Shown in pieces: positions 6,938 through 62,557 of a stretch of DNA of 64,000 nt. Both the position numbers and the translations under genes were made by a program. Origin of the DNA: Asterias amurensis (Eukaryota; Echinodermata; Asteroidea; Forcipulatida; Asteriidae); NCBI RefSeq assembly GCF_032118995.1, contig NC_092656.1:12576261-12640260 (forward strand), read 5' to 3'. The notes beneath the pieces were generated by a model. It did no database searches. It was not told where the DNA came from and saw nothing but the letters and a program-made list of their open reading frames with translations. The first letter of the stretch is position 1, and each line of letters begins with the position of its first letter.

Positions 6938-9555
6938 TCAATTCCTTCTCTTGATGACGAAGATTGCTACACCAGCAGCAACACCTACGAGGGCTACGAC
7001 ACCGACCACGATACCGACCGTAGTGCCTGTGGACCCGGCACTGCCGACGATCTGTCCGGGGTTCTTTGCCTTCTCCTCTGTGTTGGGGCTGCTCACGGAG
7101 TCTCCTGCACCGTATGGTCTAGCTGGTCTCTGCTCGACTCTGGGCCTGTAGGATCCATCACCGCCTGCCCCGTAGCCGCCAGTACCGTACGTCCTACCGT
7201 ACCCGCCAGTGCCGTACGTTCCACCGCCTGGGTTGGTACCGTAACCATCGAAGCGACCGGTACCTCTATAGCCATCACGGCCTCCTCCGTAACCACCGCT
7301 AGTGCCTGAACGTCCGGCATAACCATCATACCCTCCGTAGCCTCCGTATGTACCGGGGCCAGCACCATTCGGTGTGTCGCCACCACCGTCGTTAGCGTTA
7401 CCGCCGGCTGCTGCTGCGCCGTTGCCTCCCGTGCCGATGATTGGACTTCCCATACCGTCTCCGTCATTGGAGGTGCCGCCTGCGAAGAACGGGTTCCCCA
7501 ATGCGGCTTGTTTTTCACCAGAGCTTTGTTTCAAAACTCCAGCCTCAAGGAACGCCATGCAACCTGCAACATAAAAAAAAAAAAAAAAAATGAGGAATTG
7601 TAATACAAGAAGGAAGAACAATTCAGTCGTACAAAGTGTGGTATTTGTATTTTTGTAGTTTCTGATTTGTATTTTTGTGTAAAGCCTTTGAGGCAATATT
7701 TAAGGCGCAATATTAATGTTTCCTATTATCATTAGTATTCCTTGAAGATTTGGCATCTTATAAGCATCCGGTGTCGTGATCAGTTGAGACTTGATTTGGA
7801 GTACTTGAATTTAAGCGTATGCCAGTATTAGTAATGTTATGGTTACACTTAAGTTGTAAGAAACATTTTCATTTAAAAACAAGTTGAAAAGCTTAAGACA
7901 ACGTTGGTGGTGGTTGAGGGGAGGGGAGGAGGGGGGGGGGGGCGACCCTCAATAAAAACAACAGATGACGTGAGTGTTCTGAGTTCGACCTGGTTGTGCG
8001 CATGTGCAGCCAAAGTGCCCCGAACAGGAAATGCTGACACATTCCGATGTGCGCATTTCCTTCCAATTAACTAAAAGGTCAGGTTTAAAGTTCACAGACT
8101 GAAGAATCACTGAGTTTACCACTGTTGCGTATGCGTTCAATCAATGTTCATTAGTCTAGTTTTCATTCGGTCTCATGATGGGTGGGGCTGGTCGGGTTTA
8201 GGGGTTTGGATTGGGTTGAGCCAACGAGGCACATTACATTAAGTGAGATTAGAGAGAAACAGTTTGGATTCTGAACATTTTATGACTCATGAGTTAGCCT
8301 ACTCTAGACACACAGAGGACCTTCGCCTGAAGAACAACGAAGTAGAAGACGATTTAAATCACCCTTTAGCTGGGTGAGGCGGAGTACTTATTCGACAGAT
8401 AAGCAGGCCACATGTGACCGCTCTTGGACAGACAGCGGATGTAAGTTATTAGCCGGACTCTGTGAGTCAACCAAATCACGGACCATGGCAGAAACATATG
8501 CTTTTTTAGAAAGTTATCTGGGTTTGTTTTATTGTCGCTGTTTCTGTCAGAAAACTTGGTTGAATATGAAGCAACTGCCGCCCGTATATATGACTGACCT
8601 AAAGGGTGGTATAAAAAGCTTTTTAGTTCCTTGCATTATTGAAAAGCTCAGTAAGACTATGTTTGAGGTGGACCCCATTCTTCACATAATAACAATCGAA
8701 GTATTATAATAAAGCGCCGGTATCTGCCAATACAGGCGCTTATCATGACGCTTGCTAAAAAAGAAAAACGCACTCTAAAGCTGAGCTCCAACTGCTCGTG
8801 AAATACCTCACCCCTCATTTCAAGTCCACATAATGGCAGACCCTTTATTATACAGTTGAGTTGTACACTTTTCCTCATGAAATTGCACAGCGATTTGAAT
8901 ATGTTTGCTGCTAAAATAATACTGTGTTAGGTCTATAGGAACCCGTTGATTTGTTAGCCAAAATTACCAAATGCAAAGAGAGGTAACTTTACCTCCCGGC
9001 ACGTAGTGAGGTAAATCAGACCTTACCTCTTCGGTATGGAGAAAGACACTTGTCTTGTTTCAGGTTGGGGGTAAAGTACTCCCAAAGCCATTTTGTAAAA
9101 ATTTTGAATTCCAACTAAATTTTCATGGTAACTTTCTACAGTTGTAAGACTCCCTGATATCTACAAAGTAACAAGAAACGTGTGTGTTTTAAGTGGAGCT
9201 TTTGCATGTGTCAGAATTATCTTTAAAGCGTATAGAATTTGACAATGATTACTGCTGATGCATTTTGCTCTTTGAGAAAACATAGTTTGCTCTTTCCAAC
9301 CCAATAGTATACGATCAAACAAAGCATATATCGCCTGACATTTCCACAGAGGCAGAGTCTTTCGTGAAGACTAACTCGAGAAAGATTATGAGTGTCGAAA
9401 CGTCAAACCATTAACTAATTTTGCTTTTCATTCCACTCTAAGAAGTTATCAAATGACACAATAAGATCACTCATAAAGACTCTTCACGAAGATTCAAAGG
9501 GTTAAACCCAACCAGACTTACCCATGATAATGGTGATTGCTAGAAAAGACTTCAT
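6938..9555 (-). CDS. Gene A: Gly/Tyr-rich secreted single-pass membrane protein, two coding exons
   Basis: Exon 1 is 9,555-9,522 (34 nt, ATG in AAGATGA context) and exon 2 is 7,563-6,938. The intron has donor GGTAAGT and acceptor TTGCAG and is phase 1. The join gives a 219-residue protein and stays in frame. Residues 1-19 form a signal peptide split by the intron (MKSFLAITIIM then GCMAFLEAG). Residues about 40-165 are low complexity: Gly/Asn/Asp/Ala, then Gly-Tyr-Gly-Gly repeats with Arg and Asp. Residues about 193-215 are a Gly/Ala/Val membrane helix followed by the tail KRRN, which predicts a type I protein with a large outer part. The helix closely matches that of gene B. The function is unknown; candidates are extracellular matrix, skeletal matrix or surface coat. 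Sequence beyond the splice pattern is a prediction. Confidence 0.85.
7564..9521 (-). other. Intron of gene A
   Basis: This 1,958-bp intron carries an A-run-rich branch and acceptor region, a poly-G run near 7,931-7,942 and no other recognised gene. A weak palindrome built of AGGTAA/TTACCT motifs sits at about 8,980-9,035. Confidence 0.75.
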
Positions 9556-9652
9556 CTTGCTGTCTTCTGTCGCTACTACTAGTCAGAGAGTGAAGTTCAG
9601 ACTGACAGCGGGAGACAAGTGTGAAACCGTTCGGCTGAGATTCAAAAACGAT

Positions 9653-9685
9653 GACTGAACTCCTGAGATACCGTCAACTATAAAC
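9653..9685 (-). promoter_or_regulatory. Probable core promoter of gene A
   Basis: On the minus strand a TATA-like GTTTATAG (9,678-9,685) is followed about 25-30 nt later by an initiator-like TCAGTC (9,653-9,658). This is about 100 nt upstream of the ATG at 9,555. Gene B shows the same spacing. Confidence 0.5.
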
Positions 9686-9689
9686 ATTA

Positions 9690-11931: not shown

Positions 11932-12324
11932 TTAAAGGAACACGTTGCCTTGGATCGGACGAGTTGGTCTATAAAAAGCGTTTGTAACCGTTTGTTATAA
12001 AATGTTTATGGTTAGAAAGATGTTTTAAAAGTAGAATATAATGATCCACACAAGTATCTCTCAAAATTGCACGGTTTTCTTTTTACGTCGCGAACTATCA
12101 CGGTCGGCCATTTATGGGAGTCAAATTTGTGACTCCCATAAATGGCCGACCATGTTATTGGACGAGTTAAAAAGAAAACCACGCAATTTCGAGGCATATA
12201 TTGTGTAGATCATTGTATTCTACTTTTACATCATCTTTCTAACCATATGCATTTTATAACAAACTGTCACAAAACCCTTTTCAAAGACCAACTCGACCGA
12301 TCCAAGGCAACGTGTTCCTTTAAG
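11932..12324. repeat. Foldback MITE family F copy 1
   Basis: Near-complete palindrome of about 390 bp. The ends are TTAAAGGAACACGTTGCCTT and AAGGCAACGTGTTCCTTTAA. The centre is a perfect-looking hairpin, GGCCATTTATGGGAGTCA / TGACTCCCATAAATGGCC. The second copy is at 54,364-54,752. TTAA at both ends suggests a TTAA target, as in piggyBac-type elements. Confidence 0.9.
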
Positions 12325-14500: not shown

Positions 14501-16636
14501 CACTCCAGTGTCTTTAAGTTAGGGTTACATTAGTGTACTTCAGGCTACGTGACAAAGCCTTCAGAAGCACATTCGGTACGTCAACAATTAATTAATGCCA
14601 ATATTTATGTTTACCACTGGTATTTCCTCCCACCCTAAGAATGTAGTATAGACCTACAAATAGTGCATTTCTTTTTTTAAATATCCTTCTAGTGAAAACG
14701 TTCTCAAAGACCTAAAACGTCAACACATTAACGTCATGGGTCAGCACATTTTTGTTAAGGAAAAGTTTAATTTCATTCCTGATTTATTTATTACATTCAG
14801 TCAAAAAAGCATTAGACTTGGCCTCTGGACTGGACATTTCCATTTTATTGCAGATTTTCAATGGCGTCATGTTTCAAAAATAGTGGTCAAAAAGAGTATA
14901 CAACATTTTGAATAATATTGTTAGATTTTGAATACTTACCTACTTCTACAAGGACTCTTTCTATTATATACATATGAAACATTAGTTTGACAATGGGACA
15001 TTATAATGAAACAATTTCTCATCATCCTTCAACCTTCATATCCCCTTAATCCAAAACGTGTAGGTAACAAGGGGAACCTACATGGCTGCTCGACGTCCTC
15101 AACCTGAGTCCCATATCAAACCCTCTCCGTCCCCTGGCTCTTCCTGTTCCCACCGCAAATCTCTGACTCACTCGAGGGTCACCGTGTGAACAGGGGGATG
15201 AACCCATCGAGCTGTTGCAATGACACCCACGGATGATTAAAGCTCAATACACCATCAAAATCCCATTACCCCAGTTTTTTTAAAGGATGTCTTTGTCAAT
15301 GGAAACAATCTTGACAGGGTGAAGAAATCTCAAGCCCAAAGTGGGACAACTTCTACTATGCCAGTTTTTTGATAATATTTGAGGGTAGCGGCACGTTACT
15401 TCATATTGTTTTGCCATACGGTGTCCAATGCGTTTTATTTGTTTTGCATAAATTGGTACACCTTTGGTTGGGGATTTGCATCAGCCAACAGCTTTATCCA
15501 GCTGCCTGTGATAATCTCATAGAAAGTTACCTTAATAAATAAATATAGTGAGAACAGACCCTCCCTTGCACTATTAAAACTGGCTTTAAAGCTTTATTAT
15601 ACTTTGGATAAATACATCTCCATCACCAACGATTCCACTGTTAGTTTTCAAAAAAAATGGGACTCTTTCAAACTATTGGTTCAAGGTTAACTTTGTAATT
15701 TGTTTATTTCTTTGCTGTTAATATTACGTATTTTCAGCGTATCTGTAATATGAGGAGTGGTCTTAAGTGTGAATAACAAATTCCTCTGTGGAAAAAAAAA
15801 AAATAAATAAATAAATAAAAATAAATATGTTTCACAGAACTACTTTATCATCCTTGACTTGTTACATCTTGGACCGTAGTTCTGTCAGAGTGTCGCTTCA
15901 TCAAAACAAACCAAGAGCTTTGGACAACGTGCTTCTTTTCTGAACAACAGTAATCATTGCCATCATAAACACAATATAATATATTCACAGACGATTAAAC
16001 AATAAGTGTTTTGGCATGCGGTTCTTTATTCTTGTTCCTTTTTCTTCGAAGTGAAATGTTTCTCAGAATGCTTTCCTGCAAAATGTTTTTATTGCAATTA
16101 GTCTCAAGGGTTGTGACCATACGTATACTTTCCCTTTAAGTTAACGACTGCGAGGAAACACTCAAATTGAAAAGTTGTCTTTAAACATGTGTAAGTTTGG
16201 AAATTGTCCAAGATTCATCACACTTTTGACCGTGAATCATGCGCCCCGGGAACTATATATGGAAACAATTGCATGGATACAATTAAGGGACACTGGTGTC
16301 ACATTTTGATAGGTGCTTGAAAGATATAAACAGTGTTTAGTATTTTAAAGGAACATTACATAGTTGGTTTTTTGCTAACAAACCGTTTGCTGGCATTGTA
16401 AGCACTTTTTGTTATCCACTATAATTAATAAACGTACAAACTTGTATAAATTTGAGTTTGATCGGCCATCTGGGTCACGAGAAAATTATAGTGAACAACC
16501 GATCTTACATATTTTGCATGACATCGATGAAAAACAAAAATAAATATAACACTTGTTCTTCATCATTCTTAAATCTAGTGCGCTTTGTTTCAAAACCAAA
16601 CGATCAACACAAAGTAACAACCATAACAAATAATGT
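14501..16636. other. No gene recognised
   Basis: About 2.1 kb without a supported exon. A GC-richer patch at 15,060-15,240 has a 35-codon frame starting at 15,082 but no family or splice support. An (AAAT)n-like run is at about 15,798-15,827. Confidence 0.4.
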
Positions 16637-17019
16637 TAAAGGCAGTGACACTATTAGTAACTGTCAAAGACTAGCCCTTGCAGCTGGTGTATCTCAACAT
16701 AAGCATAACATAATGAACCTGTGGAAATTTGAGCTCAATCGGTCATCGAACTTGCGAGATAATAATGAAAGAAAAAAACACCCTTGTCACAGAAGTTGTG
16801 TGCGTTTAATGGTTGATTTCGAGACCTCAATTTCTAAATCTGAGGTCGCGAAATCAAATTCGTGGAAAATTACGTCTTTCTCTAAAACTATGGCACTTCA
16901 GAGGGAGCTGTTTCTCACAATGTTTTATACCATCAACCTCTCCCCATTACTCGTCACCAAGTAAGGTTTTATGCCAATAATTATTTTGAGTAATTACCAA
17001 TGGTGTCCACTGCCTTTAA
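16637..17019. repeat. MITE family A (orientation b)
   Basis: Full-length copy from TTAAAGGCAGTGACACTATT to ATGGTGTCCACTGCCTTTAA, with the internal foldback around ATTTCGAGACCTCA. The 170-codon frame running through it is read through a repeat and is not a gene. Confidence 0.85.
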
Positions 17020-24924: not shown

Positions 24925-27900
24925 CTATAGCTCGTTGCTAGCCTGGGTGTAGAACCTCATAAACCCGTCTCTCTTCTTTCGGATAGCGAAGATGATACCG
25001 ATGGTCGACACGGACACCAGGGCGAGCACTCCGATGGCAATGCCCACCGCTTGCCCAGCACTTCCCGTGTGCAGCTGGGTATTGCCATTGGTTTGGATTT
25101 TGGAGAGGAAGGATGGATCGTCTTGCAGAGCGCCTCCTGGCTTCTGCTCACCGCTGTTCTGGTCGGTGGATCCGGCGTTACCACCCCCTTGCCCTCCACC
25201 CTGCGCACCGCCTCCCTGTACACCGGTTGCTTTGTTACCCGCTGCACCAGCACCGACGACCGGACTTCCGCCTTGGCCTGCCGTACCGGAGGGGACGCTA
25301 CCGACGGGCACGATAGAGCCCATGTCTGTGTCGCTCCCTTCCTCCTCGCTACTGGAGCTGATTGAGCTATCTGCCTCAGTGGGGATGAAGTACGAGCTTC
25401 CAGTTTGAGGGTTGCCCTGTGGGTTGACGTTGGCACCTTCATCCTGGTCGTCTGGGGTGTCAATATTCAGAGGGTCTTGGAAGTTGTCCATCGTCCCTTG
25501 CGGGAAGCCTGTTGCCATAACAACTAAGAATTTCAAACAGGGAGATGTAAACAGTTAGAACCATTCTTTCAATCCATCTGTGCATGTTACGTTTAATGTA
25601 ATTATACACGATTTTGCTTTTTATGTTGTTTTGTAAACTAGAGGATTTTGGGGTAATGTTGTAGAATGTGCTACACTGTGACAATGTCCTGTTAAAATGT
25701 TGTGTTCAACGATCACGGTGCAAAATTTGTGGATAGACAAACAAATAATTTTGTTATGTTCGTTTAGTCGTCTGGAACACTGAGCATGATACCGGCAACA
25801 CCGACCAATAATAAAAAAGATAAAGGCCGATATGTATGTGGTATAAAACAAAAACAATGTATTTTTCTCAAAATTGAAAGCACGGTAAATGCCATGGTTT
25901 TACTGGATGCAATGTTTGCAAATAAGGTATAATAAATACTACCCGAGAAAAAAACCAAAATCACAACCGAACAAAATCACACCGTCAGTACAAAACCTTT
26001 GTCATTATTGATCCGGGTTCTGTGTCCTGTGGTCTGACCCTATTTGGGTCAGCCTGTTGAGGAAAGTGAGTAAAATGACACATTAACTCGGACTCTGTGC
26101 CAGTTTGACCCATATCTGTGTCATTTTGTGTACACAGATTGCGGGTCATACTGACACCAACATGGGTCAGATCCCATGGAAACCGGATCTAGGTCGAATT
26201 TGACCAGGACGTTTTGCATGTATGTAACACGAACAACATCAACAGCAACAGAGCAGCATCAGGAGCATGAACAGCAATCCCCCCCTCAAACCCCCTCCCC
26301 CCCAAAAAAAAAAAAAAAAACAGCAACACCAACAACAACATCAACATCAATAACAGCAAAAACGAAAAAAAAAAAAAAAAAAGGCAACAGCAACAGCAGC
26401 AGCAACAAAAACAAAAACAACAGCACACTACTTCTTCAACCATAAGATTTCCTCAATGCTGGACTCTTTTACACCCATTTAACGAGTCATGCTTGATGTA
26501 CCTTTGAACTGAGATTCACAAGTTGTCCAACAAAATGTCAGCAAATGTGATTAATTTAACTCTTTGCACGCTGAAGTTCTAGGGTCTCCTTAACATTGAC
26601 TCATAGAGTTGAACAGACCCTCGTGACCTTTCAACTCGTGTTGCGCTTGCGCATCACATTTGTATAGGGCAGCTCTATTTTTTTTATTGCTTCACCAACT
26701 TTCAAAATTCTTAATGTTAGAATCGTAAACATAACGAGTTTCAACTTTTAATGGTGACGTTAATAACACTCCTTTATAGAGGTTATGTGGCAATCAGCAA
26801 ACTAAATATGACTTTCACGTTTACAAGTTTTGATTTTGTTGGGCCTATAAGTATGCTCAGCAGGGGAGTTGACTGAAAAACACACCTAAACTTCGAGTGA
26901 CGAGTTTTACCCACGAAGAGTATGGACCTTCAACATAATAGGTCCATTCAACACAGTAACTTGAAACACTGTGTGGGCGTTTATGCCCACAGAGTGTTTT
27001 CAAAGTGTTAAAGGCAGTGGACACTATTGGTAATTACTAAAAATAATTATTACCATAAAACCTTTCTTGATTACGAGTAATGGGGAGAGGTTAATGGTAA
27101 AAAACATTGTGAGAAACGGCTCCCTCTGAAGTGCTGTAGTTTTCGAGAGAGAAGTAATTTTCAACGAATTTGATTTCGAGACCTCAGATTTAAAATTTGG
27201 AGGTCTCGAAATCAAACATCTGAACGCACACAACTTCATATGACCAAGGGTGATTTTTGTTTCGTTAATATCTCGCAACTTTAGTAACATTTTGTGATTT
27301 TGAAATTTCCTGGAAAGGAGACACTCTTTAAACAAGCTAGCACCTGCTTTTGCCTTGCTGGAAAAAGAAGCTAATTGCAAAGGCAGCCAGGAAAATGTTT
27401 GCCATCAAAAGGAAGCTTGGAAAGCCTCAGATAAAAATTGCATTCCTAAAAAAGAAAATAAATGTGGCAATCTTCTCCTAAGGTTAACTATAGGCTGATA
27501 ATTAAGTTAAAATTAAAACGCACTATAATTTACAACAGGAAGCCCAAAATAGCAAAGAAAAAGCATTTTATGTTCCATCTTATTTAAAACAAGTGTTTGA
27601 GCTTGTGAAACCATTAGCTGTTTTTGTCCATGACATAATGACTGTCAATAAACTTGTCGATGGAGTCATGACCTTTTAACGGTTTATTTCAAGTTTATCT
27701 CGGTAAGCCCACTTGGGTTTACAAAGGTTTGCTTATAGTTGCTTGCACATCCTAAAGCGTAGGAGCCGAGCACGTGGTGACAAGTAAATCCCCAAAATAA
27801 ATGTATAGCTATCTATTAAAAGTACAATTATATAAATTTTACGAAAATCATTGTTAACATCATTTGCACTTTTAAGGCACTGGACACTGTTGACAAACAC

Positions 27901-29359
27901 TTAAATAATTGTTAGCTTTACATTTGACATGGTTATGAGTATGAAGAGAACTGTTGATAGTAAGCAAATTTGTGAGAAACAGCTCCACAAAAATGTTTTT
28001 CTTTGTAAATATGTATTTGTCTCACTCGTAGTACAACACACAGGTTTAAAGCCTTTAGTGGGCATTTGGCAGCACAAGAGAGCCATACGAGTGTTTGTTC
28101 TTTCATAATGACTATTTGAGTTCAAATTTTTACATATTTGTTTATTGTATGCATGTGTTGTGATAATCCCACTGAGAATTATTGGTATTTGACAACTACC
28201 AAAGGTGTCAAGTGCCTTGCGAATTGTCATTCGTACCGAATCAGAACATTAAAAAAAGCAACTGTGACGTATTAACGACACTGGACACTATTGGTGATTG
28301 TCAAAGACCAGTCTTCTCACTTGGTGTATCTCAACATGTGCATAAAATAACCAACCTGTGAAAATTTCAACTCAATTGGTAGTCGAACTTGCGAGCTATG
28401 AATTTAAAGAAAAACACACCCTTGACACACAAAGTTGTGTGCTTTCAGATGCTTGATTTCGAAACCTCAAGTTGTAAATCTGAGGTCTCGAAATCAAATT
28501 CGTGGAAAATTACTTCTTTCTCGAAAACTACTTCACTTCAGAGGGAGCCGTTTCTTACAATGTTTTATATTATCATCCTCACCCTATTACTCGTCACCAA
28601 GAAAGGTTTTATGCTAATAATTATTTTGAGTACTTACCAAAAGTGTCCACTGCCTTCAATAATGTACAATGGTTTGTCATGACCACACTCTGAATTTCAT
28701 TAATCAGAAATTACAGATCGAATCTTCAGAGCATATGCAATGTATAATATGTCATTTCGCAAATTAAAACATTCTCAATTTAATTCTAGTTTAAAAATAA
28801 AAGCAAGGCAGCATTAAGTCATGTTTAACATTGCCAGTTCAAAGTATGTGGAAGTGCATCAATTACAGTGAGCACCCAGACACCTGCGCTTCTAGCATAC
28901 TCGGGCAAAGGAAGTAAGTTAACATGCAGTAAACGTTTCTCTTATTTTGTCAACTGTAACGATATATCTCCGCCAACATAGCTGAAAGTGTAGCTTAGAA
29001 ACATCGCCCTGAGAGCATTAAACGCATAAGTCAGCCTTTATGATTGCACATAAATAAGTAATTTTGCAAGATGCAACAAAGATGCATGAGCTGATCAAAC
29101 ATAACTTGATTGCATTGCCAAGTGACTGTCTCATTTGCGAGAAAACTTGACCAGAAATGTATTAAACTTATCGTTTGTATGGCCTAAATGACAACGGTTT
29201 TGCAAGGGGTGTTGACGATTTTTAACAAATGAAATGCACCTCAACCACAAAACGTCATCCACCAAAACTGCTCCTTCCACCGCAAAACGCGCTGCACAAT
29301 AGCTCAAGCTAAAAGTTGTACCTACCCAAAGACAAGATGCAGCAGCACATAAGTCTCAT
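24925..29359 (-). CDS. Gene B: acidic Ser- and Gly/Gln-rich single-pass membrane protein, two coding exons
   Basis: Exon 1 is 29,359-29,326 (34 nt, the same length as in gene A) and exon 2 is 25,523-24,925. The donor is GGTAGGT, the acceptor TTCTTAG and the intron phase 1. The joined frame gives 210 residues. Residues 1-17 form a signal peptide (MRLMCCCILSL then VVMATG). Residues 24-40 are Asp-rich. Residues 60-80 hold a Ser run followed by three Glu and Asp, with several S-x-E sites of the kind phosphorylated by secretory-pathway Fam20-type kinases. Residues about 85-130 are Gly/Gln/Ala-rich. A membrane helix spans about 170-192 and a tail starts RKKR. The helix aligns with gene A (shared GSAG, VGI, ALV and IF positions). 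An acidic phosphoserine-like, Gly-rich type I protein of about 200 residues resembles sea urchin P16-type skeletogenic proteins. That is an analogy from architecture only. Confidence 0.85.
26235..26440. repeat. AACAGC-rich, A- and C-run low-complexity tract
   Basis: Degenerate CAACAG/CAACAA units broken by C-runs and A-runs. Frames on both strands here (Thr/Lys or Cys/Phe/Leu-rich) are not genes. Confidence 0.8.
27009..27290. repeat. MITE family A, truncated (orientation a)
   Basis: Begins AAAGGCAGTGGACACTATTG and runs past the internal GAGACCTCAGATTTAAAAT foldback. It stops near TATCTCGCAACTTTAGTAAC with no second terminus. Confidence 0.75.
27872..28219. repeat. MITE related to family A, diverged
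   Basis: Ends AAGGCACTGGACACTGTTGA and CCAAAGGTGTCAAGTGCCTT are inverted relatives of the family A ends. The interior is largely different, including the GATAGTAAGCAAATTTGTGAG region. Confidence 0.55.
28274..28659. repeat. MITE family A (orientation b)
   Basis: Full-length copy from ACACTGGACACTATTGGTGA to AAAGTGTCCACTGCCTTCAA, with the internal foldback ATTTCGAAACCTCA / TGAGGTCTCGAAAT. Confidence 0.85.
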
Positions 29360-29480: not shown

Positions 29481-30459
29481 GTGAGTGCTGGATACAGTTA
29501 ATGCAGCCAAGGGGTTTTATTTTACTCGGGACGTCATACCTCCCTAGACCTTTGGGATGTACTATTTGGCTAGCGCGCCCAGGGTCGTCATAAAACGAAC
29601 TTGTCAGCTTCTTGACTTTCGTTGGATAACAACGAACAAAAAAACCCCAATTCTTCTACAATTGCTCATCTTTTTATGTTTCTATGCAATCCAGATTGTG
29701 TTACCATGAGGTCACAACTCAGGGGAAATGCACGATATCCCTAGATTTTCGACGCCCACAAGTTCATGATTGTTAGGTTATTTATTTATATTTTTTGTTT
29801 ACATGTCTTCTTCAACGATGTAATTTTCAAAGGGAAACTGGGTCACAACTCATGAGTTTTGTAATTCAAAGTTACCCTGGGGAACAGTTGTGTCCCTGTA
29901 CAATAATTTTAAACAACTTTATGTTTTAAATTTAGTATTACATGAACTATTACAGTATAAAATGCCTGGAAAAAAAATAATATTTTTTTCATGGAACAAT
30001 AAACCCTGAGGTAGCCTTGAAGTTTGTGCGCAGGTCTTTGGAAACAAATCAGCATAATAGACCAATTTGAAGTGTCTGGCGACAATTCTGGATTTGATTT
30101 TGGCCGTCTTCCCGATAATAACATCGAACTTGGCTTCGTATCGAGATAGTGTCAGAAGGTCAATCATTTCCATCGTGCCAAACTTCCTGCGTATACTGAT
30201 AAAAAGTACAATCCTGCTATTTTGGTCAAAATTCTGCAGGATTTTTTTTCTTCAGAACAAATGAAAAGAAAAGGTACTTTCTCATCCCGTTTTTGTCGCA
30301 AAAAACATGTAGTTTCACGAACTTTGCTAACACCTTACTGGTCCCTTTCTTTTTAAACAAACTCTTAAAGCAAACATAACAACATTTTCTAAACATTGTA
30401 TGAGGAGTCACTTTGTACCAACACAAGGAGCTCAACCATTTACACAAAAATGTTAACAC
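29481..30459. other. No gene recognised
   Basis: Upstream flank of gene B. Overlapping short frames on both strands around 29,910-30,270 have no domain, splice or codon support. Confidence 0.4.
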
Positions 30460-32990: not shown

Positions 32991-34177
32991 CCTATCTTTC
33001 TGAAAGTTTGTTACCTTGTTAGGTAGATAAAAGGGACCTGTATCCGCTTAGCTACATCCAGTGACGCCATTTTGCTCCAGATACCACAAAACCAACAGCA
33101 ACTGTGAAAACCTAAATGCATTAATCCTCACAAACGCAACCACCACAAACATGTTTACCAACCCCCTACCAAAAACTTCACAGCCCAGAATCATTAATTG
33201 CGCTTGTTATAACTTCCACTGCCGCAAGCGCTATCGCCACAACATGTAACTGTTGCATCTGCACCCGAAAAACCATGGCCAACACCATCATCTTCAGCCC
33301 CCCACCCCCCGCCACAGTCGCCATCATCATACAAAAACAACCCCCCCCCCCATTCATTAGCACACTCCCCATCACCACCATCAACCCAATGACCACCAAC
33401 ATGCCTCTTCTCATCCACCACCACTGCTTTATTTATCTTTCTTCAGGACCACGCCCCACCCCACAGTTCATGCATATCGTTACATCAACCCAAAACCAAT
33501 TACTCATGCTTCATCACCCATCATAAAGGTACTTCAAATTCCTTGGAGGTTGCTCCTGCGGTAGATCTTTAGATTAAACACATTATGTTCTTGACTTTCT
33601 CTTCGTTGATATCGACTTCTACACGTCACTTTACCCCAGTTAACTTTGTTGGCAGTGAGTCAAGTCATGTTTCCGTCATAATTGAATCCGATCCCCAGAA
33701 AGGCTTCAACTACTTCACATTACTGTCTTGCACAAGATATATTATTCTCTGTAAATCTTAACATTTATGTGACGTAGACTTTGTTATGAACAGTTTTACA
33801 AATAAACACTCTGTACAACGGTCGTGTATGTTCCTTTACCATAGACGTTAAGATGCATTGTCGAACCCACACTAGGTTTTTGAGATTGGATGCTGGCCTT
33901 GAACACATTAAATGTCAATGTAGGTTGCTGTCCGACAGACGAAACTCTGCTTCTCAAACTCGAGCTATTACACGGGTGTGCGGCACCTAAATGTAGCCCG
34001 AGCCCTAAATGTAGCCTGACCTTAATGTAGCCCCAAGACCCTCCTACACCCTCCCACATATATATGTTACATCATTGCTTTCATACAGTTTCATCTTATG
34101 CTGTATTTGCTTTTCGCAAAGCACTATCAGGATGTTTCCTTCTGCATTTTTGAATTTTCCAGCTGTAGTTCAGTTAA
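32991..34177. other. CA/CCA-rich DNA, no gene recognised
   Basis: 33,060-33,530 is another CA-rich degenerate stretch; its minus strand reads Gly/Val/Met-rich, but as a composition artefact. 33,540-34,177 shows nothing recognisable. Confidence 0.45.
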
Positions 34178-44328: not shown

Positions 44329-45942
44329 TTAAACATTAAGACGTGTTGTACCGGCCGTGTTTCTCTGTTGCCTTTTGTAAAATATGTACATCCCGCCTGC
44401 GATCAGGAGGCCTCCGACGACGATACAGGCAAGGGTGACGGATGCTGTTTTCCCCGGGCTGTTCAGTAGACCGACCCCGCCTCCAGCTCCGTAGTCATAT
44501 GAAGAATACTGGGCGTTCGTGCTCCCGTCGCCTGATCCTGAGCCGTCCATATCGTCCGAGTCATCGTCGGTTGCGCCTCCTGCCGCTTGTCCGGCCCCAG
44601 CGGCTGCACCGGGTCCACCGCCGACGCTTCCACTGTTACCACCCGGAAAGGAGGCTCCCCCCGTACCACCGATTCCACCTACTCCACCCACTCCACCCAC
44701 TCCACCCACTCCATCTACTCCACCTACTCCACCCACTCCTCCTGGGTTTCCACCTGCTCCGCCTGGGCCACCTGGGGCACTTGGGCCACCGGCTGCCCCC
44801 GGTTCACCGATGCCGTGTCCAGCACCACCACCACCGAATGGTGGCATGGGGGGTTGTGTCGTTGACGGAGGCTGTGGGTAGTCTACATTTGGTATGTTCA
44901 CGGGTACGTACTGGCAAATCGCTGAAAGATCACACATTATTTTTTGGATTAGTAACTTTTAATCATCATCTTTAAAACTATGATTATACAACAAAAAGGA
45001 CAATATGCAAAGTCAATTACATCCATAATTATGTCACAAATAACTTTGGATACCGTTATGATAATGAGAACTCCGTAAAGGTCAGAAATAAGGCTACCTG
45101 ATTGAGGTTATTTATTTTAGTTGTTTTTTTTTCCAGGAAATTTAGTCACTTTTCAATCTAAATAAAACATGAGCATTGTGTTTCTTTATGAAAATGTGGC
45201 GGAATATTACGACGATTCTCTATTAAAAATTGTCAGTTTGAAAAGAGCAACTTTCTTCCTCAGAAGCTTTCCTAAAAGTAATGTAAACGTTTTTGTCTTG
45301 TTCTGAAAAATTACTTATAAATAAAGTGTGTAATCTCTTTAAGATAGTAGGCCTCACAATTTTATTTTTGATGCATCTAAATACATGTGTCTATTGATGA
45401 AAGCAATCTGGCTGTAGAAATCTGTCAATTATGATAGTTTTGTGGCTTTAGTATTTCATTGAGAGTGTGTTCTATTTAATTAAAACTAGTAATTATCATT
45501 CCTCTGAAGCAAAAACAAGCTTCTATTAAACAAAAGTTAAAAACATGCATACTTTGTGTTTCATGTTAAGACGATAAATTCGTCTTAAGTTTCAACGATC
45601 ACATCTAATTCTCTAATTGTGAGCCGTCTCGCCAATTCATGGATGATTGGTGAAGTCCGCTACAGGCTTTCAGTATTTTGTGTTAAATATATTTGCTGAA
45701 TAATCATGTTCTTAAAAAGAAACATGCAAACAATAATAATTCCGATCAAATCGATCAACGCATCGTAACATAAGTGTATTTCATGACAGTGGGATGTGTC
45801 CCCAATGTATTACCACTTTGAATAAACAAGACTCAAAGAAACCAGTCATTATCTTAATTTATAAGAATGTCACATTATAGATAAAATGATGTATCTTACC
45901 TGCTAATGGGCACAGTGCCAGTATCAATAATAAGTATGTCAT
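44329..45942 (-). CDS. Gene C: Gly-Gly-Val-rich single-pass membrane protein, two coding exons
   Basis: Exon 1 is 45,942-45,900 (43 nt) and exon 2 is 44,921-44,329. The donor is AGGTAAG, the acceptor GATCTTTCAG and the intron (978 bp) phase 1. The product is 211 residues. Residues 1-17 are a strong signal peptide (MTYLLLILALCPLA plus AIC). Residues 21-43 are Pro/Thr-rich. Residues 44-125 are Gly-rich, with a core of Gly-Gly-Val/Ile triplets that is elastin-like or spider-silk-like in composition. Residues 133-140 are an acidic patch (DDDSDDMD), and 141-158 are Gly/Ser/Tyr. A membrane helix spans about 174-196, followed by a tail starting KRQQRN. The GGV tract is the likeliest spot for repeat-length variation. 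The role is unknown; the same gene plan as A, B, D and E argues for one family. Confidence 0.85.
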
Positions 45943-48513: not shown

Positions 48514-50346
48514 TCATATCAAGGTACAGCAAGTAATGACAGCGAACATTTGCACTAGGAGCATCTTCCAGACCCAACCAAGCCTGATGGAAGACGCAGC
48601 AGAGTTCAAATTGGCGTTCTTCCTCCTGTTCCTTGGTGGCACTTTAAAGTAAGGATTTAGAGGTATGTAGCTTTGCGATCCAGTGCCCAGGCTTCCACCC
48701 TGGCCCCCGCCATGGCTGCTACCTTGGCTCCCGCCCAGGCTTCCACCCTGGCTCCCGCCCTGGCTTCCACCCTGGCTCCCGCCCTGGCTCCCACCTTGAC
48801 TCCAGACCTGACCTCCACCCTGACTTCCACCAAGTCCGCCACCCTGGCCTCCTCCTCCGCCCAGACCGCCACCACCCTGGCTCCCCCCTCCTCCGCCACC
48901 TCCGGTACCAGCCTCGCTCTCACTCTCGGCGACGCTCTCCCCTTCGGGTTCCTCGACTTCCTCCGAAGAATCTCTCCGGACACGGTGGATTCTGTTCTCG
49001 TATCTCTCCACTAAGTCCTCTCGGAGACTCCGTAGATTAATGTTGGAGCGAGTACTGTCGATCGCTGCTCCATGATGTTTAAGTTTGCCTGTGTGTTCGG
49101 CATCCGAAAGCCGAGCATCGGCTGACCCAACTGTGCACACGAGTAGGAAATAAACTATATGGGAGAAAAACTATGAAAATTTAGTTATTAAAAAAAAATA
49201 TATATATACAGCATTTTGTTTTCAGTGCCGTTCGAATGTTTTAATATTCTAAAAAAGTAGATGTTGCGAACTTATTACCATCAAAATTACGTGTGGTATA
49301 AATGCAACCAATTCGTTGCTAAGCCTGACGTTTCGACCCTAACAACTCTACCAGAGTCGAAACTACAGACCATTAACTATGTTTTGTGTAGACACTAAAT
49401 TTAACAAGTAACATTTCATGTAAAGTCGCGTTTTCGATATTAGGGACTTTTCGTTTTCGATGGTCCTGCGACGGCAAAGATGACATTTGGCGTCATCTGC
49501 GCATGCGTCGGCTTTGAGGACGGTCGTCCCTCAATTTCTACGACTGTACGTGGGATGAGTCTTCGTTGTGCTGAACAACCGTCGCAGAACCATCCGTCGT
49601 CGAAAACGAAAAGTCCCTATTATCGCCGCGAGTTCGGAGCGATTATGAGTAGCAACATCGCTGATCTTCGCACGTAATTTGAGAGGCGTTACGCGGTAAC
49701 GCTTCTCAGATTCAAATTATGTTGAGTGCAGAATAACTGATATCTTTCAACATGACTACATTATATCGAAACGAAATGTTTATAAATTTGTCTCACGCAC
49801 TATCGTAAGCTGACGTACGCTGGTAGCAAATGTTTTCCAAACGTACACCTTCTATTTAAAGGCACTGGACACTATTGGTAATTATCAAAGACTAGTCCTC
49901 ACAGTTGGTGTATCTCAACATATCCATAACAAACCTGTGAAAAAATTGAGCTCGATTGTTGAAAGATTGAGCTCAATTGTTCGTCAAAGTTGCGAGATAA
50001 CCATAAAAGAAAAAAACACCCTTGCCACACGAAGTTGTGTGCTTTTAGATGGTTGATTCCGAGACCTCAAGTTCTAAATCTGAGGTTTCGAAATCAAATT
50101 CTTGGAAAATTTACTTCTTTCTCGAAAACTACGTTACTTCAGAGGGAGCCGTTTCTCACATCAACCTCTCCCCATAATAAAGGTCTTATGATGTAGTTAG
50201 TTTGAATAATTACCAACAATGTTCACTGCCTTTAACTCAAGTAAGCCATTTATGCAATCATGGATAGTCATTGATACAAATTGAATTTTAAACTACAGAC
50301 AGTACTCACCAAAGGAGAGCCAAAACCTAGTCTTTACTGGACCCAT
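48514..50346 (-). CDS. Gene D: Gly-Ser-Gln-repeat secreted protein, probably GPI-anchored, two coding exons
   Basis: Exon 1 is 50,346-50,310 (37 nt, donor GGTGAGT) and exon 2 is 49,154-48,514. The acceptor CCCATATAG was chosen over a CACAG 18 nt downstream because it follows a better pyrimidine tract and completes a signal peptide (MGPVKTRFWLSF then VYFLLVCTVGSADA). The intron is phase 1. The product is 225 residues. Residues 27-69 are charged and less repetitive. R70-V-R-R73 is a furin-type site followed by an acidic Ser/Glu block (74-95). Residues about 97-178 are Gly-Gly-Ser-Gln repeats. Residues about 186-202 are basic then small (N-S-A-A-S-S), and the final 15-20 residues are hydrophobic with no charged tail, as in a GPI-attachment signal. 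A plain C-terminal anchor is the alternative. It is the only array member without a basic cytoplasmic tail. Confidence 0.8.
49439..49623. repeat. MITE family I copy 2, inside the gene D intron
   Basis: TTAGGGACTTTTCGTTTTCG and CGAAAACGAAAAGTCCCTA form near-perfect terminal inverted repeats flanked by TTA-type bases. The interior matches copy 1. Confidence 0.85.
49856..50234. repeat. MITE family A (orientation b), inside the gene D intron
   Basis: From TAAAGGCACTGGACACTATT to AATGTTCACTGCCTTTAA, with the internal GAGACCTCAAGTTC / TGAGGTTTCGAAAT foldback. It ends about 75 bp from the exon 1 donor. Confidence 0.85.
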
Positions 50347-51933: not shown

Positions 51934-52844
51934 AAATAACTGACATATAGATCCTTGTCATTTGATGTATTTGTAAAGTACAACATTATGAAAAAATCAC
52001 ACAAATTACTGACAAACATAAATTCTATAGCGCCGCGTAGCGGCAGCAGTGCAATAATCGGATCACAACATTTTGCACAGGTGCTCCTTTGTTTTAGCAG
52101 CCCGCGCCACTGTACTGCTCAATATTGTGAGCAAGGATGATCCAAACTATTGAATGGGAAATGTTAATTATTCCCCATTGGCGAATAGGTCTTTTTGGAT
52201 AGCCGCTGCGGATGGGAGTAATACTGCATGTCACGCGAAGTAAGTTCCACCAATCAAATGACAAGGATTGTATTGCAGTTACAACAACTATAACTGTTGC
52301 CTTCTTCAGTATTTCAGATAATTTAGGGTTACGCCCTTGTTCCAGGAACTCAACGTAATCTGTAGCAAAATGTCAAAAGCAATATGCATTCTGACAATAC
52401 CAATGTACACAACATACTGTTTGTTGCTAGAATCCTTATGACATAATGGTTTCCCAATCCCCCAGAGCTTATAACCATCTTAATGTAATGACTTAAGAAT
52501 GTAAACAACAACTCATGACAGTATCCGGTTATGGTAAAACCGCAGTTACTATCATCCAGTTTTTGAACATTTATGTCACTGTTTCATTAGATGTACTCAT
52601 GCAACAGCCGTCAGCACTTTCCGAGGTCACGCTCATGACCTAACCTTAGCGGAAGTATTTAGTCACATCTGACCTCGCTGGAAACACCCAAAGTTGGCCT
52701 GGCTTTGTAGGCCTATATAATTTATCATATCTTGCACACTCATGAATTATTCTTCTTATGTTAAAAATGACTCCGTTCTAAGTTAGGCTCCTCATGATAG
52801 TTAGATCCATAAATTACAAGGAAGTGTTTATCGAAGGTAACACT
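51934..52844. other. No gene recognised
   Basis: Contains only the outer inverted pair mentioned for the neighbouring element. No exon or RNA gene was seen. Confidence 0.4.
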
Positions 52845-53235
52845 TAAAGACAGTGGACACTATTGGTAACTGTCAAAGACCAGTCTTGTCACTTGGTGTA
52901 TCTCAACAAATACATGAAATAACAAACCTGTGCAAATTTGAGCTCAATCGGTCGTCGAAGTTGAGAGATAATAATGAAAGAAGAAAAAAAAAAACCTTGT
53001 CACACGAAGTTGTGTGCTTTTAGATGGTTGATTTCGAGACCTCAAATTCTTAACTTGAGGTGTCGAAATCAAATTCGTGGAAAAATACTTCTCCCTCGAA
53101 AATCATGTCACTTCAGAGGGAGCCGTTTCTCAAAATGTTTTATACCATCAACCTCTCCCCATTAATCATTACCAAGTAAAGTTTTTTGCTAATAATTATT
53201 TTGAGTAGTTACCAATAGTGTCCACTGCCTTTAAA
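52845..53235. repeat. MITE family A (orientation b)
   Basis: Full-length copy from TTAAAGACAGTGGACACTAT to ATAGTGTCCACTGCCTTTAA, with the internal hairpin. Confidence 0.9.
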
Positions 53236-53965: not shown

Positions 53966-54363
53966 GCGAGTTAATGTATACCGTGCACAAGCTTCAATTT
54001 GTCAGCCCTCTGCCAAAAGCAACACCCCTCTGCCGATATGGGATCTAGACGATAATGACGTATTCCGTCGAGCTCATGAAATGAAAAAAGAACAATGTTG
54101 GAAACTTGAGTGTCTGTTTCGGGGGAAGGATATGGTTGGGTTGGGATTGAGTAGGTGGTGTTTGAATCCCCCCCCCCCCCGAAAAAAAAAATATAAAATA
54201 AAAACATGCATAGAACGGTTAAAAAAAAAAAAAAAAAATGTAAAGAACAGTTTTGGTTTCTTTCCGATGAGTCCCCACTTGGTTCACTGTTTTTTCTTAA
54301 TCTCAATATACCTGGTAGGAAATGAAAAATTTACTCATTCTTTTAAAGAATTCTATGCACTAT
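53966..54363. other. No gene recognised
   Basis: C-run (54,170-54,179) and A-runs (54,221-54,237) dominate; nothing coding. Confidence 0.45.
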
Positions 54364-54752
54364 TAAAGGAACACGTTGCCTTGGATCGGACGAGTTGGTC
54401 TATTAAAAGCGTTTGAAACCGTTTGTTATGAAATGCGTATGGTTAGAAAGATGTTTTAAAAGTAGAATATAGTGATCCACACAAGTATCACTCGAAACTG
54501 CACGGTTTTCCTTTTACGTTGCGAACTATCACGGTCGGCCATTTATGGGAGTCAAAATGTTGACTCCCATAAATGGCCGACCGTGTTAGTCGACAGGGTA
54601 AAAAGAAAACCACGCAATTTCGAGGCATATTTGTGTAGATCATTGTATTCTACTTTTACAATATCTTTCTAACCATATACATTTTACAACAAACGGTTAC
54701 AGAACGATTATCAAAGACAACTCGACCGATCCAAGGCAACGTGTTCCTTTAA
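54364..54752. repeat. Foldback MITE family F copy 2
   Basis: Near-identical plan to 11,932-12,324: TTAAAGGAACACGTTGCCTT ends in both senses and a GGCCATTTATGGGAGTCA central hairpin. Confidence 0.9.
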
Positions 54753-57063: not shown

Positions 57064-59109
57064 TCAAGAGATCCGTACCCTTGTAGCTACGAAATAAGCA
57101 ACGCCCCCAATGGTTGTGACGACGACAACCCCACCAATTACTACAACGGCGAGTATTGCTGGGAAGGGTACAGGCTGTGTACGTGGGGCCTTGGGTTCAT
57201 CTTGTGAGATTTGAGCAATGTTATTGGAGATCGTAGGAGACTTTGATTTGGGCCGAACATCTTGTTTTGGTGGTTTAAATCCCGCCCCGTTCATCCTCGG
57301 GTTGAACGCCTCCATCCCGATATCACCCCTCGTGCGGGTGGTCAGGGGTACCGCTGCGGGCCACTCGGTGGGTGCAGGAGGTGGGATAACCGGTGGGATC
57401 CTTGGGTAACCAACGGGATTAGCTGGACCAATATCTGGGTACTTTGGTACCGCAACTGGGTGATACCTCGGAATCGCAGCGGGGGCTCCTCCTGCTCGGC
57501 CCGGGCCGTCTGGGTTCACATGACCCGGGTTGACCGGGATTACGCCGACGCTGGGCCAGGTGTTTCCCGCGCCTACCTCCTCGGAGCTTCCACCAGTCTG
57601 TTCGGCACCATCGGTCTGGCCTGCTAACTCCTGGCTTTCTTGATCGCCAAAGCCATTTGTTTGTTGCTGCCCTCGTTTGCCATCTTCCATACTAATTGGG
57701 AGTGACTCAATGACATATGGAAGGATAAAGAAACCTGTAAATAGGTCAGAGACAAACAAAACAGGAAACAAATATTTTAATGTAGATGAATACAACAGGT
57801 TGATCCAATTAATCAATCAAGAATAACATAATTGTTCTGTTTTAATTCGGACAATTCACTAGGACGCACAGTTGTTCATGCTTATTAGAATAAATATCAA
57901 CAAATGTTGGTGTCTATATTAAAAGTAACGAGGAAGTACATACTAACGGAGTAATTACGTTTATAAATGTTTTCTAGAACTATTTTGGTACATGCATTGT
58001 TCGTATTCAGCGAGTAAGCTGTGTCTGATGCAAAGGATGAAGTTCCTTCCTTCCGACCATTGAAAGGAAAACAATACACCTTTTGTTTTGTTTAATTGAT
58101 TGTTTTAATCCAATCAACGTACATGTGTACATTGCGAAACAAATGTGACAATTTCACTAACAAAACAAAATTGTGGAAGCGTTTTTTTTATGTGTAAGTT
58201 GATGAATCTTACTGCATTGTGAAATATAAACCAGAACTCCTCGAAACCGAGTCTTAGTTGTCATGGCAACAGTTTATACAAAGATAACATATTTTCATTT
58301 CAGAACAAATATGACGTCGTATTGGATTATTTTCTTTTTTTTCTTTTGTGCAATAAATTATCCCAGTTAATTATTATCAGCGTAGAAACAACTGTGACAA
58401 TACTGTTTGATTAGGAAAACAGTCCTGAAAAAGGGTAAACGTTTGATTATCACACACACAAATAATTGGCAATACAAACTTATTTATAGGTTGGAAGTAG
58501 ATCAGCTTGCGATTGTATAAAACACTGAGTAAACATTGAGTTTAATAATATAAACAACATTCAACACAATCCGATAAACATTACTGTTGACAGGTTTCTT
58601 AGATTGTGTTATCTAATAACATTTTACTGCGTGGACCTAACTGGATTTTGGGCTGTTTCTAAAAGACGCTAACACCTTTTTCACAACTTAGTTGTATTGT
58701 TTACTTAAATAATGCATAATACTATTAGAAATAAAACAATCAAACAGTTCTCAAAACCAAAATTGCACATTCCCTTGTATGAAAACAATTATTCAGAGCG
58801 AAGAGTAGCGGTGGCAGAGGCATCTGCATTTTGCCATATTCTACAACAGACCTATTGATATACACAATGGAAACAACAACTCCAGTGTGACCAAAACGTT
58901 GATTAGCAGCATAACAATTTAAAGTCAAATTTAATGAACTTATCAGCAATGACAAACCACAATCCGACTGACCGGGAATGAGTCAGAGTGCCGGTGAATC
59001 TCCAAAGTTGCCATTACATCATCGCATGTGCCCGGTTATAAAACTAAACAAACAATATTTAAGACTTACCTATCACGGCAACTAAGTAAAGGCTTGCTGT
59101 CGACGCCAT
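57064..59109 (-). CDS. Gene E: Pro-rich single-pass membrane protein with RGD, two coding exons
   Basis: Exon 1 is 59,109-59,070 (40 nt; start context AAGATGGCG) and exon 2 is 57,734-57,064. The donor is AGGTAAGT, the acceptor TATTTACAG and the intron (1,335 bp) phase 1. The product is 236 residues. Residues 1-24 are a signal peptide (MASTASLYLVAVI then GFFILPYVIES). Residues about 30-75 are acidic with Gln and Gly. Residues about 80-145 are Pro-rich with Tyr/Ile/Val and PRYHP, PKYP and YPRIPP motifs. R149-G150-D151 is an integrin-binding tripeptide in a polar surround (TRTRGDIGM). Residues 155-200 are Lys/Ser/Asn-rich. A membrane helix spans about 206-230 and a short tail starts TRVRIS. The ectodomain has no similarity to A-D that I can see, yet the gene plan is the same. 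Confidence 0.85.
57735..59069 (-). other. Intron of gene E
   Basis: Plain AT-rich intron. No MITE copy was found, unlike the introns of B and D. Confidence 0.7.
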
Positions 59110-60130: not shown

Positions 60131-60379
60131 TTTTGTTTTCAAAGAACTCGAGAAGGAAACGGGTATACAGTGTAGTTTAAACACATCGGTTATGAGGTAA
60201 AACCAGACCAATATTCTTGCAAAATAAAAACCCATAAAAACGGTATGCCTAACTCTCGGAACCAATTTTTCTCCCTGTGAGCGTTTTATAATAGCTGTTC
60301 CAGAAATTATGTTACTATTTTGTCTTATAATCAACACCATGTAATGCTTAAATCATCACCCACATGGTATTCGTTTGGA
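60131..60379. other. Unrecognised spacer between two MITEs
   Basis: Short AT-rich spacer; nothing identified. Confidence 0.4.
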
Positions 60380-60735
60380 CTTAAAGGCAGTGGACACTAT
60401 TGGTAATTACTCAAAATAATTATTGGCATAAAACCTTACTTGGTAACAAGTAATGGGGAGCTATACTGATGTTACAAAACACCGTGAGAAACGACTTCCC
60501 CTGAAGTAACGTAGTTTTCGAGAAAGAAGTAATTTTCGACGAATTTGATTCCGGGACCTCAGAATTAGTTTTGGAGGTCTCAAAATCAAGCTTCTGGAAG
60601 CACAAAACCTTCGTGTGACATGGGTGTTTTCTGTTATTATTATCTCGCAACTTTGCAACTTTAACGACCAATTGAGCTCAAAATGTCACAAGTTTATTAA
60701 TATATGTTGATATACACCAAGTGAGAAGACTTTGG
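60380..60735. repeat. MITE family A (orientation a), missing its last bases
   Basis: Begins TTAAAGGCAGTGGACACTAT and continues to CACCAAGTGAGAAGACT. The final TIR is lost. Confidence 0.8.
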
Positions 60736-61854
60736 TCAGATTTGTTGTCTGCCACGCTTGACATGTTTTATATTACGTGGACTTCGGTCTGCTCAATCGA
60801 CCGACTAACTACCTCTTGTCCAAATATAAACCGGCCTTGTTCCGATGAATGTCAATAAATAGTTTACTATTTGCAAATTTCACCGTGCACGTCAACGTGG
60901 CGGCACGCACCTTGCACGAGGTAATCATAACCAAAAAGACGAGTTGAACTTCGCGCCAAAAATAACGATCGCTTGGTCTTGGTATACCAGTTTTGTTCGT
61001 ACACAGTTTGTGCACAATTATTCAAATAATTATAAATAATTGACTTAATTTTCCTACGTCACTTGGTGACTTTCATTCTGCTCTGAGATTTCATCAACAT
61101 CAAATGAACACAAAAATCCAGCCACGTGATTTCAGCGATGTCATCGAAGAGTGGAGATGAATTAACAAATATATATATATATATATATTTTTTTTTTGCG
61201 TTATCACCACTTTACAAAACCCTTAATTTACCCATTCTGGTTTTAAGATAGTCAAGTAAGAAGTTCATACAAATTAGATAATTGTCTTCAAGTCGAAATA
61301 AAAACCCTACTAAAATTGCAAATTTGTTTTTATTATTATTTAATACACAATGTGTGACAAGCCAACATGTTAAAACTTTGGTATAAATAATAATAGTCCT
61401 TCGACCAAAAATACTTTCATCTTGAACAATTCAAATATTTAATTACTTATTAATATGTTTTAATTAACAAATTCACAATAAAATTATAATATGTGTCTAT
61501 ATCGTAGTATAACAATGCGAAATGACATTCAGGAAACCGTCCTCGGCAGTAGAAGTGAGTGAGATGTGTTGACGTTTCTGATTTGAGAGCTGCATGTTGG
61601 CATTGGTCTCCCGGTACGGATACAACAAGTAACTATACATAGTTTGGGAATCTTATGAGTTTTTTTTTTAATTTGTATAAACATTGAACATTTCTATGAA
61701 CTTATGAACCAGTTAAAAATACATCTTCTCCATACAATTATTTAAATTAACTATCATTCACACACTAGTTTTAGTCTTAAACGTGAATTTGGGTTAGAAC
61801 AAGAATACGCGCAATCCATCGGGAGCTAGTGCTGTAATCTGCTCTACCGGCCAA
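60736..61854. other. No gene recognised
   Basis: Contains an (AT)n tract at 61,170-61,188 and a T-run. No exon or RNA gene was supported. Confidence 0.4.
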
Positions 61855-62019
61855 GCTTCGTACTGATCATACCCAAGCCTTCGTCTCTATCGACTGTACA
61901 AGGGCTAACCCTGTTTCAGCCCTAGGAGTACGAGGTAATGGCCTCTGGGAAATAATTGAAGCCCACACCTTGTATGTGTCTGGCGACTTGCATTAAAAAA
62001 AATAATAATAATAATTGTT
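61855..62019 (+). mobile_element. SINE 3' part with (AAT)n tail
   Basis: Matches the body of the minus-strand SINE at 4,225-4,395 (for example TGTCTGGCGACTTGCAT) and ends in an A-run plus AATAATAATAAT tail. The tRNA head is missing or too worn to see. Confidence 0.65.
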
Positions 62020-62156
62020 TGTCTCCTAGTGTAGCAATGGGGTCAAAAATCACTATGGAAGTTCTTACGGAACTTGGTAGTCTATCATTATTTACATAAA
62101 ATGAATGGCTCGGGGACTGGTACATAAACATTGGAATAACTCATCGATTTAAGTGT

Positions 62157-62557
62157 CTACTCCGTTCCATCACCTCGCGGAGTTCTGCCTGGTGGCGTTG
62201 TCGTTACGGCTTGCGTGGTTGTCATTGCTATCGTGGTCGTCATCGCTGTGGTCGCCACCGTTGTCGTTGTAGGGGGCATGGTCGTGGTCTTGACCGATGT
62301 GGTGGCTTGAGTCGTAGCTTGAGTCGTCGTGGCTTGAGTTGTGGTCGGCGATGTCGTGGTCGTAGGTTTCTTACATGGATTCTCATTGCTGTCGTCTCCG
62401 TTGTCATCGTCCCCGTCATCGCTGTCATCGTTGCCACTGTCACCGCACTCGGAACTGTCATCGCCGTCGCTGTCATCACGGACAATTCGCTGACGATTCT
62501 TCATGCGACGGAACTTTCTCAGGGGGCGACTATCAGAGATCTGTGCTAAGAAGAGCG
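62157..62557 (-). CDS. Gene F: acidic Asp/Ser block plus Thr-rich mucin-like protein, 5' exon not found
   Basis: The minus-strand exon starts after acceptor TTGTTCACAG and needs one base from an upstream exon, so the intron is phase 1 as in A-E. The first residues (ALFLAQISDS) look like the end of a signal peptide. Then come a very basic stretch (RPLRKFRRMKNRQR), a 35-residue block of Asp/Ser/Asn/Gly with two Cys, and about 60 residues of Thr with Ala, Gln and Pro (TTTQATTTQATT type), a likely O-glycosylated stalk. It ends T-P-R-G-D-G-T-E-stop, giving an RGD near the C terminus. There is no membrane helix in this exon. Either the protein is secreted or a further exon follows; a weak donor, GAG|GTGATG, occurs near the end. 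The ATG exon is expected at higher coordinates, probably beyond 64,000. Confidence 0.65.

Follow-up and report, generated by a model that had tools for sequence, protein, structure and literature searches.

Proteins of the P16 family are built from a signal peptide, a short low-complexity ectodomain, a single C-terminal transmembrane helix and a short tail. P16 is a surface protein of skeletogenic cells (PMC9811153), and its knock-down results in less spine growth in juvenile sea urchin rudiments (PMC4250057). Sp-P16 (SPU_018408) is directly adjoined by Glean3:18406 and Glean3:18407, whose products contain 30% glycine and 10% proline, end in a C-terminal membrane segment and rank with the most abundant proteins of the sea urchin skeletal matrix; a secretion signal is clear in 18407 and not in 18406 (PMC2909932; PMC2614417; PMC2527298). 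A shortage of tryptic sites has been put forward to explain why P16 escaped detection in sea urchin matrices (PMC2909932). The names P16rel1 and P16rel2 also occur in connection with this locus (PMC4778923). In starfish, a transcript named App16 has SPU_018408 as its best match (E = 6e-11) and is up-regulated on over-expression of alx1 (PMC4750990). Unlike sea urchins, asteroids have no larval skeleton (PMC4336488). Here we describe an array of five to six neighbouring minus-strand genes for small cell-surface proteins with simple outer parts. It is found in a 64,000-nucleotide stretch of the Asterias amurensis genome (NCBI RefSeq GCF_032118995.1, contig NC_092656.1, positions 12,576,261 to 12,640,260), which we call the window. 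By analogy, we tentatively favor the view that the array is a P16-like cluster whose products are small surface proteins of skeleton-forming cells, anchored in the membrane and probably disordered, while giving it somewhat less than an even chance.

The gene models of the array are sound. A sequence-only reading of this DNA had proposed five minus-strand joins, each linking a first coding exon of 34-43 nt to a second exon of 593-671 nt across a phase-1 intron inside the signal peptide, and all of this can be read from the sequence as described (Table 1). Genes 1-5 span about 52 kb on one strand. Their introns measure 1958, 3802, 978, 1155 and 1335 nt, begin with GT and end with AG in 5/5 cases, leave the first exon in phase 1 in every gene and interrupt the signal-peptide region after residue 11-14. 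The NCBI A. amurensis proteins P0003 and P0001 match spliced gene 1 (219 aa) and spliced gene 2 (210 aa), respectively, at every residue (100% identity, full length), so two of the five proposed joins have independent confirmation. First exons were also scanned for within a reach of 6 kb, with fixed donor and hydropathy thresholds and with candidates ranked by donor score. The scan returned 1, 3, 1, 4 and 1 candidates for genes 1 to 5, and the proposed exon had the top donor score in all five. In a control of 300 random 4 kb stretches of the window, 43% held at least one candidate and 18% held one with a donor score of at least 8, so the sequence by itself gives any single join no more than moderate support. 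We regard the joins of genes 3-5 as likely rather than certain.

The reading frames themselves exceed chance. Simple repeats aside, no stop-to-stop frame in the window other than these five reaches 200 aa. Thirty first-order Markov copies of the window were made after removal of two repeat stretches; their longest frame averaged 159 aa, the maximum overall was 207 aa, and 2 of the 30 copies had any frame of at least 190 aa. A 225-aa frame in the observed count of this test is an artefact of microsatellite removal.

Table 1. Exons of the array genes and copies of a dispersed repeat, in window coordinates (second-exon lengths of genes 1-5 include the stop codon).
Feature	Position	Strand	Length	Content and status
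Gene 1, coding exon 1	9522..9555	-	34 nt	MKSFLAITIIM + 1 nt; identical to NCBI protein P0003
Gene 1, exon 2	6938..7563	-	626 nt	Gly-Tyr rich ectodomain, transmembrane helix, tail KRRN; protein 219 aa
Gene 2, coding exon 1	29326..29359	-	34 nt	Identical to NCBI protein P0001
Gene 2, exon 2	24925..25523	-	599 nt	Ser-Glu / Gly-Gln ectodomain, transmembrane helix, 18-aa tail; protein 210 aa
Gene 3, coding exon 1	45900..45942	-	43 nt	Prediction
Gene 3, exon 2	44329..44921	-	593 nt	Gly-Gly-Val repeats, Asp/Ser patch, transmembrane helix; protein 211 aa; prediction
Gene 4, coding exon 1	50310..50346	-	37 nt	Prediction
Gene 4, exon 2	48514..49154	-	641 nt	Basic stretch, Glu/Ser patch, Gly-Ser-Gln repeats, C-terminal hydrophobic stretch; protein 225 aa; prediction
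Gene 5, coding exon 1	59070..59109	-	40 nt	Prediction
Gene 5, exon 2	57064..57734	-	671 nt	Pro-rich ectodomain, transmembrane helix; protein 236 aa; prediction
Gene 6, exon 2 candidate	62157..62557	-		Phase-1 acceptor, basic stretch, Asp/Ser/Asn-rich then Thr-rich; 133-aa peptide
Dispersed ~390 bp family, copies (at least)	4687-5087, 16636-17019, 28272-28659, 49856-50235, 52844-53234, 60381-60732			

Signal peptides and membrane segments were called from hydropathy. Genes 1, 2, 3 and 5 encode a single C-terminal hydrophobic helix followed by a short tail, which is the P16-type protein layout. The C-terminus of gene 4 is a hydrophobic stretch with no tail and, by eye, looks like a glycosylphosphatidylinositol (GPI) signal. 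Gene 6 has no anchor. One plan is common to the exon structure and roughly to the topology, and the anchor type differs (four transmembrane, one GPI-like and one absent). That the array encodes secreted low-complexity proteins, as was first thought, is supported. In gene 4, at 48958-48987, a basic stretch (HRVRR) stands ahead of the acidic Ser/Glu patch and by eye resembles a furin-type cleavage site. The basic stretch of gene 6 likewise precedes its acidic part.

Gene 6 was taken to be a sixth member on the strength of its acceptor and phase. These are indeed the same as in genes 1-5, and here the likeness ends: no first exon was found in the window. None passed the thresholds in the 1443 nt of window upstream of it, and relaxed settings gave only candidates with poor donors. 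The 133-aa exon-2 peptide has no membrane segment, and no signal peptide was found for it within the window. Gene 6 could be a neighbouring gene for a secreted protein; alternatively, the window may end short of its first exon.

The evolution of gene 1 points to the anchor as the part that is kept. Protein databases were searched with gene 1, gene 2 and the gene 1 anchor, and candidates had to share 5-residue words with the query. For gene 1, the 7989 candidates sharing most words were scored and matches up to E = 10 were kept. Four proteins emerged, namely gene 1 itself, a protein of Patiria miniata and two further entries. The Patiria homologue (P0006, 185 aa, E = 6.6e-9) is named 'circumsporozoite protein-like' at NCBI, which we take for a compositional mislabel. 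Between Asterias and Patiria, 25 of the last 31 residues (helix and tail) are identical, and the signal peptides are aligned in a common register with 8/19 identities. Across residues 47-160, 21 of 58 aligned positions are identical and there are 63 gap columns, so the ectodomain has been largely replaced. The Gly-Tyr block of gene 1 is absent from the ectodomain of P0006, which has GGGDTPD/SPD motifs. The glycines G195, G199, G205 and G209 of gene 1 are invariant in 4/4 sequences, and its anchor holds two conserved GxxxG spacings. The fast turnover of ectodomains that had been proposed is borne out for this gene. As for the companion idea that only gene structure and anchors survive, in gene 1 the membrane helix is kept and not gene structure alone. 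The anchors of the array are not uniform. It had also been expected that homology searches would return these genes as orphans or miss them. This is not supported, as NCBI holds genes 1 and 2 and a search with gene 1 found the Patiria homologue.

When only the anchor of gene 1 (residues 176-219) was used as the query, 94 candidates yielded gene 1 itself and P0004, and the Patiria protein was missed. The only relative found for gene 2 was P0002, with 87% identity over 203 residues. No relative of gene 1 was found in the PDB. Tandem repeats inside second exons (genes 1, 3, 4 and 6) have a period divisible by three in 6/6 rows. Outside exons this is true of 15/21 rows as well, and the in-frame periods are thus weak support for in-frame slippage.

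Are these genes one family? The anchors of genes 1-5 were compared by a strict test in which flank, helix and tail were shuffled separately, with 2000 block shuffles per pair. For genes 1 and 2 the anchor score was reached by 0/2000 shuffles, which shows common descent of their anchors. Each of the other nine of ten pairs was reached by at least 72 of 2000 shuffles (best pair 3-5, at 72), and family-wide homology through the anchors was not accepted for them. When the final 60 residues were shuffled more loosely, pairs 3-5, 1-5 and 1-3 were favored (1, 2 and 8 of 500, respectively), an advantage that was lost once helix, flank and tail were shuffled separately. Among the first 40 residues no pair stands out (best 12/500 shuffles). 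In plain full-length shuffles, 0/500 reached the score for 5/15 pairs (1-2, 1-3, 1-4, 2-4 and 3-4). We tentatively ascribe this excess to clustered glycine runs that plain shuffling breaks up, and likeness outside the anchors of genes 1 and 2 is limited to Gly-rich runs. The sequence-only reading, right exon by exon and partly supported overall, was over-extended in its single duplicated family of six, which the anchors of genes 1 and 2 support and the other nine pairs among genes 1-5 do not.

These results give weight to a view that we consider a serious if doubtful competitor, in which unrelated or partly related secreted-protein genes lie side by side, for example within one regulatory domain. 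The true duplicates would then be genes 1 and 2 alone, and the common plan would be an ordinary phase-1 intron combined with convergent low complexity. One in ten anchor pairs is alike beyond helix composition, the N-termini show nothing, and no exon-to-exon pair between two genes is present in the best 60 listed self-matches of the window. In vertebrates and arthropods, phase-1 introns are generally in excess near the sites where signal peptides are cleaved (PMC1626468). As they are common in animal secreted proteins, the shared gene plan does not prove descent and was rejected as proof of it. On the other side, 5/5 credible frames lie on one strand, with near-equal exon sizes and one intron at the same place, and the looser tail shuffles lean toward kinship of genes 1, 3 and 5. 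Sequence similarity would, moreover, be lost in old duplicates too.

The P16-like reading accounts for the layout as follows. The signal peptide would deliver each protein, and the single helix (GPI in gene 4) would hold it in the plasma membrane. The flexible Gly-, Ser/Asp- or Pro-rich chain would then face the space where calcite is deposited. Since the gene 1 helix has stayed almost constant between Asterias and Patiria and the chain has drifted, lateral packing is probably set by the anchor, through its two GxxxG spacings, and in the outer part bulk chemistry alone would matter. Disorder, skeletal cells, mineral contact and helix packing are what we infer for the array proteins. Five Gly-rich genes with a signal peptide and a C-terminal membrane segment are clustered on one strand, an arrangement like that described for the sea urchin (PMC2909932).

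Several observations weigh against the P16-like reading. App16 was undetectable by in situ hybridisation in the very study that reported it (PMC4750990), and its tie to the array genes is hypothetical. A brittle star paper describes the category that includes P16 as highly conserved across four echinoderm classes (PMC5831733). If P16 is so easily recognised, the lack of a sea urchin match argues against genes 1 and 2 being P16. The searches with gene 1, gene 2 and the gene 1 anchor gave no named non-starfish protein among the candidates sharing 5-residue words (for gene 1, the 7989 sharing most), and the comparison of gene 2 with P0002 lacks the contrast between anchor and ectodomain. Alx1-type TAATNNNATTA sites are not enriched in the window (5 found, 2.73 expected; 14/100 shuffles reach 5). 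The words P16, low complexity and transmembrane do not occur in the main text of the proteome paper on the Patiria skeleton, and no acidic repetitive proteins resembling those of the spicule matrix are reported in its abstract. That genes 3-6 descend from the ancestor of genes 1 and 2 is not supported by sequence comparison. The conservation of P16 in the brittle star paper and the repeat-period control have lowered our confidence in the P16-like reading.

In a stronger form, the asteroid array would be the orthologous P16 locus, echinoderm-wide, with only a Gly-patterned transmembrane helix, the signal-peptide intron and gene order kept and with the mineral-facing chains replaced wholesale by lineage-specific repeat turnover. 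We consider this unlikely. The start of Sp-P16 implied by a published morpholino is MKT (PMC4250057), which is too short for comparison. If the array were this locus, the conserved functional element would be the membrane helix and not the mineral-facing chain.

Chains rich in Gly-Tyr, Gly-Ser-Gln or Thr are of a kind suited to coats and adhesives, and this counts toward an epidermal or tube-foot surface coat, in which the array would encode cuticle or adhesive proteins such as mucin-like or podoplanin-like glycoproteins. Gene 1 has a sub-threshold match to podoplanin (PF05808; E 0.0029, 18.3 bits, cut-off 30) and gene 5 one to the MGC-24 sialomucin (E 0.072, 13.9 bits, cut-off 28.5). Both matches lie under the curated Pfam cut-off, however, and the podoplanin match comprises residues 187-217, the helix region. 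We regard the surface coat as improbable. Least probable of all is a cluster of immune effectors comparable to SpTransformer (Sp185/333) of sea urchins, diversified fast by its repeats: six SpTransformer genes in 34 kb carry their leader in exon 1 (PMC3091723), and genes 1-5, with a leader in exon 1 and two coding exons, match this plan and its clustering, but SpTransformer copies align as variants of one element set (PMC3091723) while the array genes do not, four array genes have a transmembrane helix, no array protein has a Pfam match at cut-off, and no urchin entry appeared in the searches with genes 1 and 2.

Other features of the window were recorded as well. Of the 38 frames listed for the window, ten further ones were scanned and had no Pfam match at the curated cut-off, and the window gave no tRNA and no Rfam match. 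Extra members were sought among frames of at least 100 aa that have a C-terminal helix or are Gly-rich; this gave genes 1-5, simple-repeat frames and three further frames, which were judged spurious by eye (34015-34386 on the plus strand, 27901-28248 on the minus strand and 62100-62549 on the plus strand, antisense to gene 6). TATAWA is over-represented in the window (180 found vs 111 expected). It was set aside, a match within 400 nt upstream being present for one of five genes (gene 2). Positions 3325-3971 hold a (TAT)n microsatellite (about 216 copies, 99% match). Upstream of gene 2, at 30455-31979, is a 21-bp minisatellite (with periods of 42 and 63 too) with several frames open on either strand. 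The dispersed family of about 390 bp occurs in both orientations, with copies roughly 74-88% alike in the listed pairs. Copies or parts of it lie in the introns of gene 2 (27008-27281 and the copy starting at 28272) and gene 4 (the copy starting at 49856). Another element of about 390 bp is present in two copies that are 92% alike (11932-12323 and 54363-54752). It matches itself in reverse (about 84-85%), which indicates a fold-back element resembling a miniature inverted-repeat transposable element.

How does the array compare with known gene clusters? Vertebrate SCPP genes are, like the array, clustered, of low complexity, secreted, mineral-related and subject to fast turnover. They have phase-0 introns and several exons, unlike the array, and no homology is claimed. 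SpTransformer shares with the array a leader exon, clustering and a repeat-rich second exon that carries the mature protein; array members, in contrast, differ from one another and are mostly membrane-anchored. Among the matches listed in open-licence literature (titles and abstract openings), no asteroid cluster of this kind is described. Echinoderm skeletal proteins are hard to trace between classes because of repeat turnover, and a kept anchor with a free ectodomain would offer a handle on cross-class counterparts, which could be sought by anchor and locus and not by chain. A testable point is whether P16-type genes belonged to the adult skeleton programme before larvae gained a skeleton. 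The sea urchin P16 locus has, as does the array, a Gly-rich chain predicted to be disordered, a C-terminal membrane segment and a signal peptide (18407), in genes that lie beside P16. The 18406 and 18407 proteins are of 36 kDa with a pI of 11, whereas the array proteins have 210-236 aa and, by residue counts, are not strongly basic. The likeness is one of layout only, and the searches with genes 1 and 2 yielded no sequence link to sea urchin P16. A link of the array to the known skeletal cluster of the sea urchin is plausible and testable.

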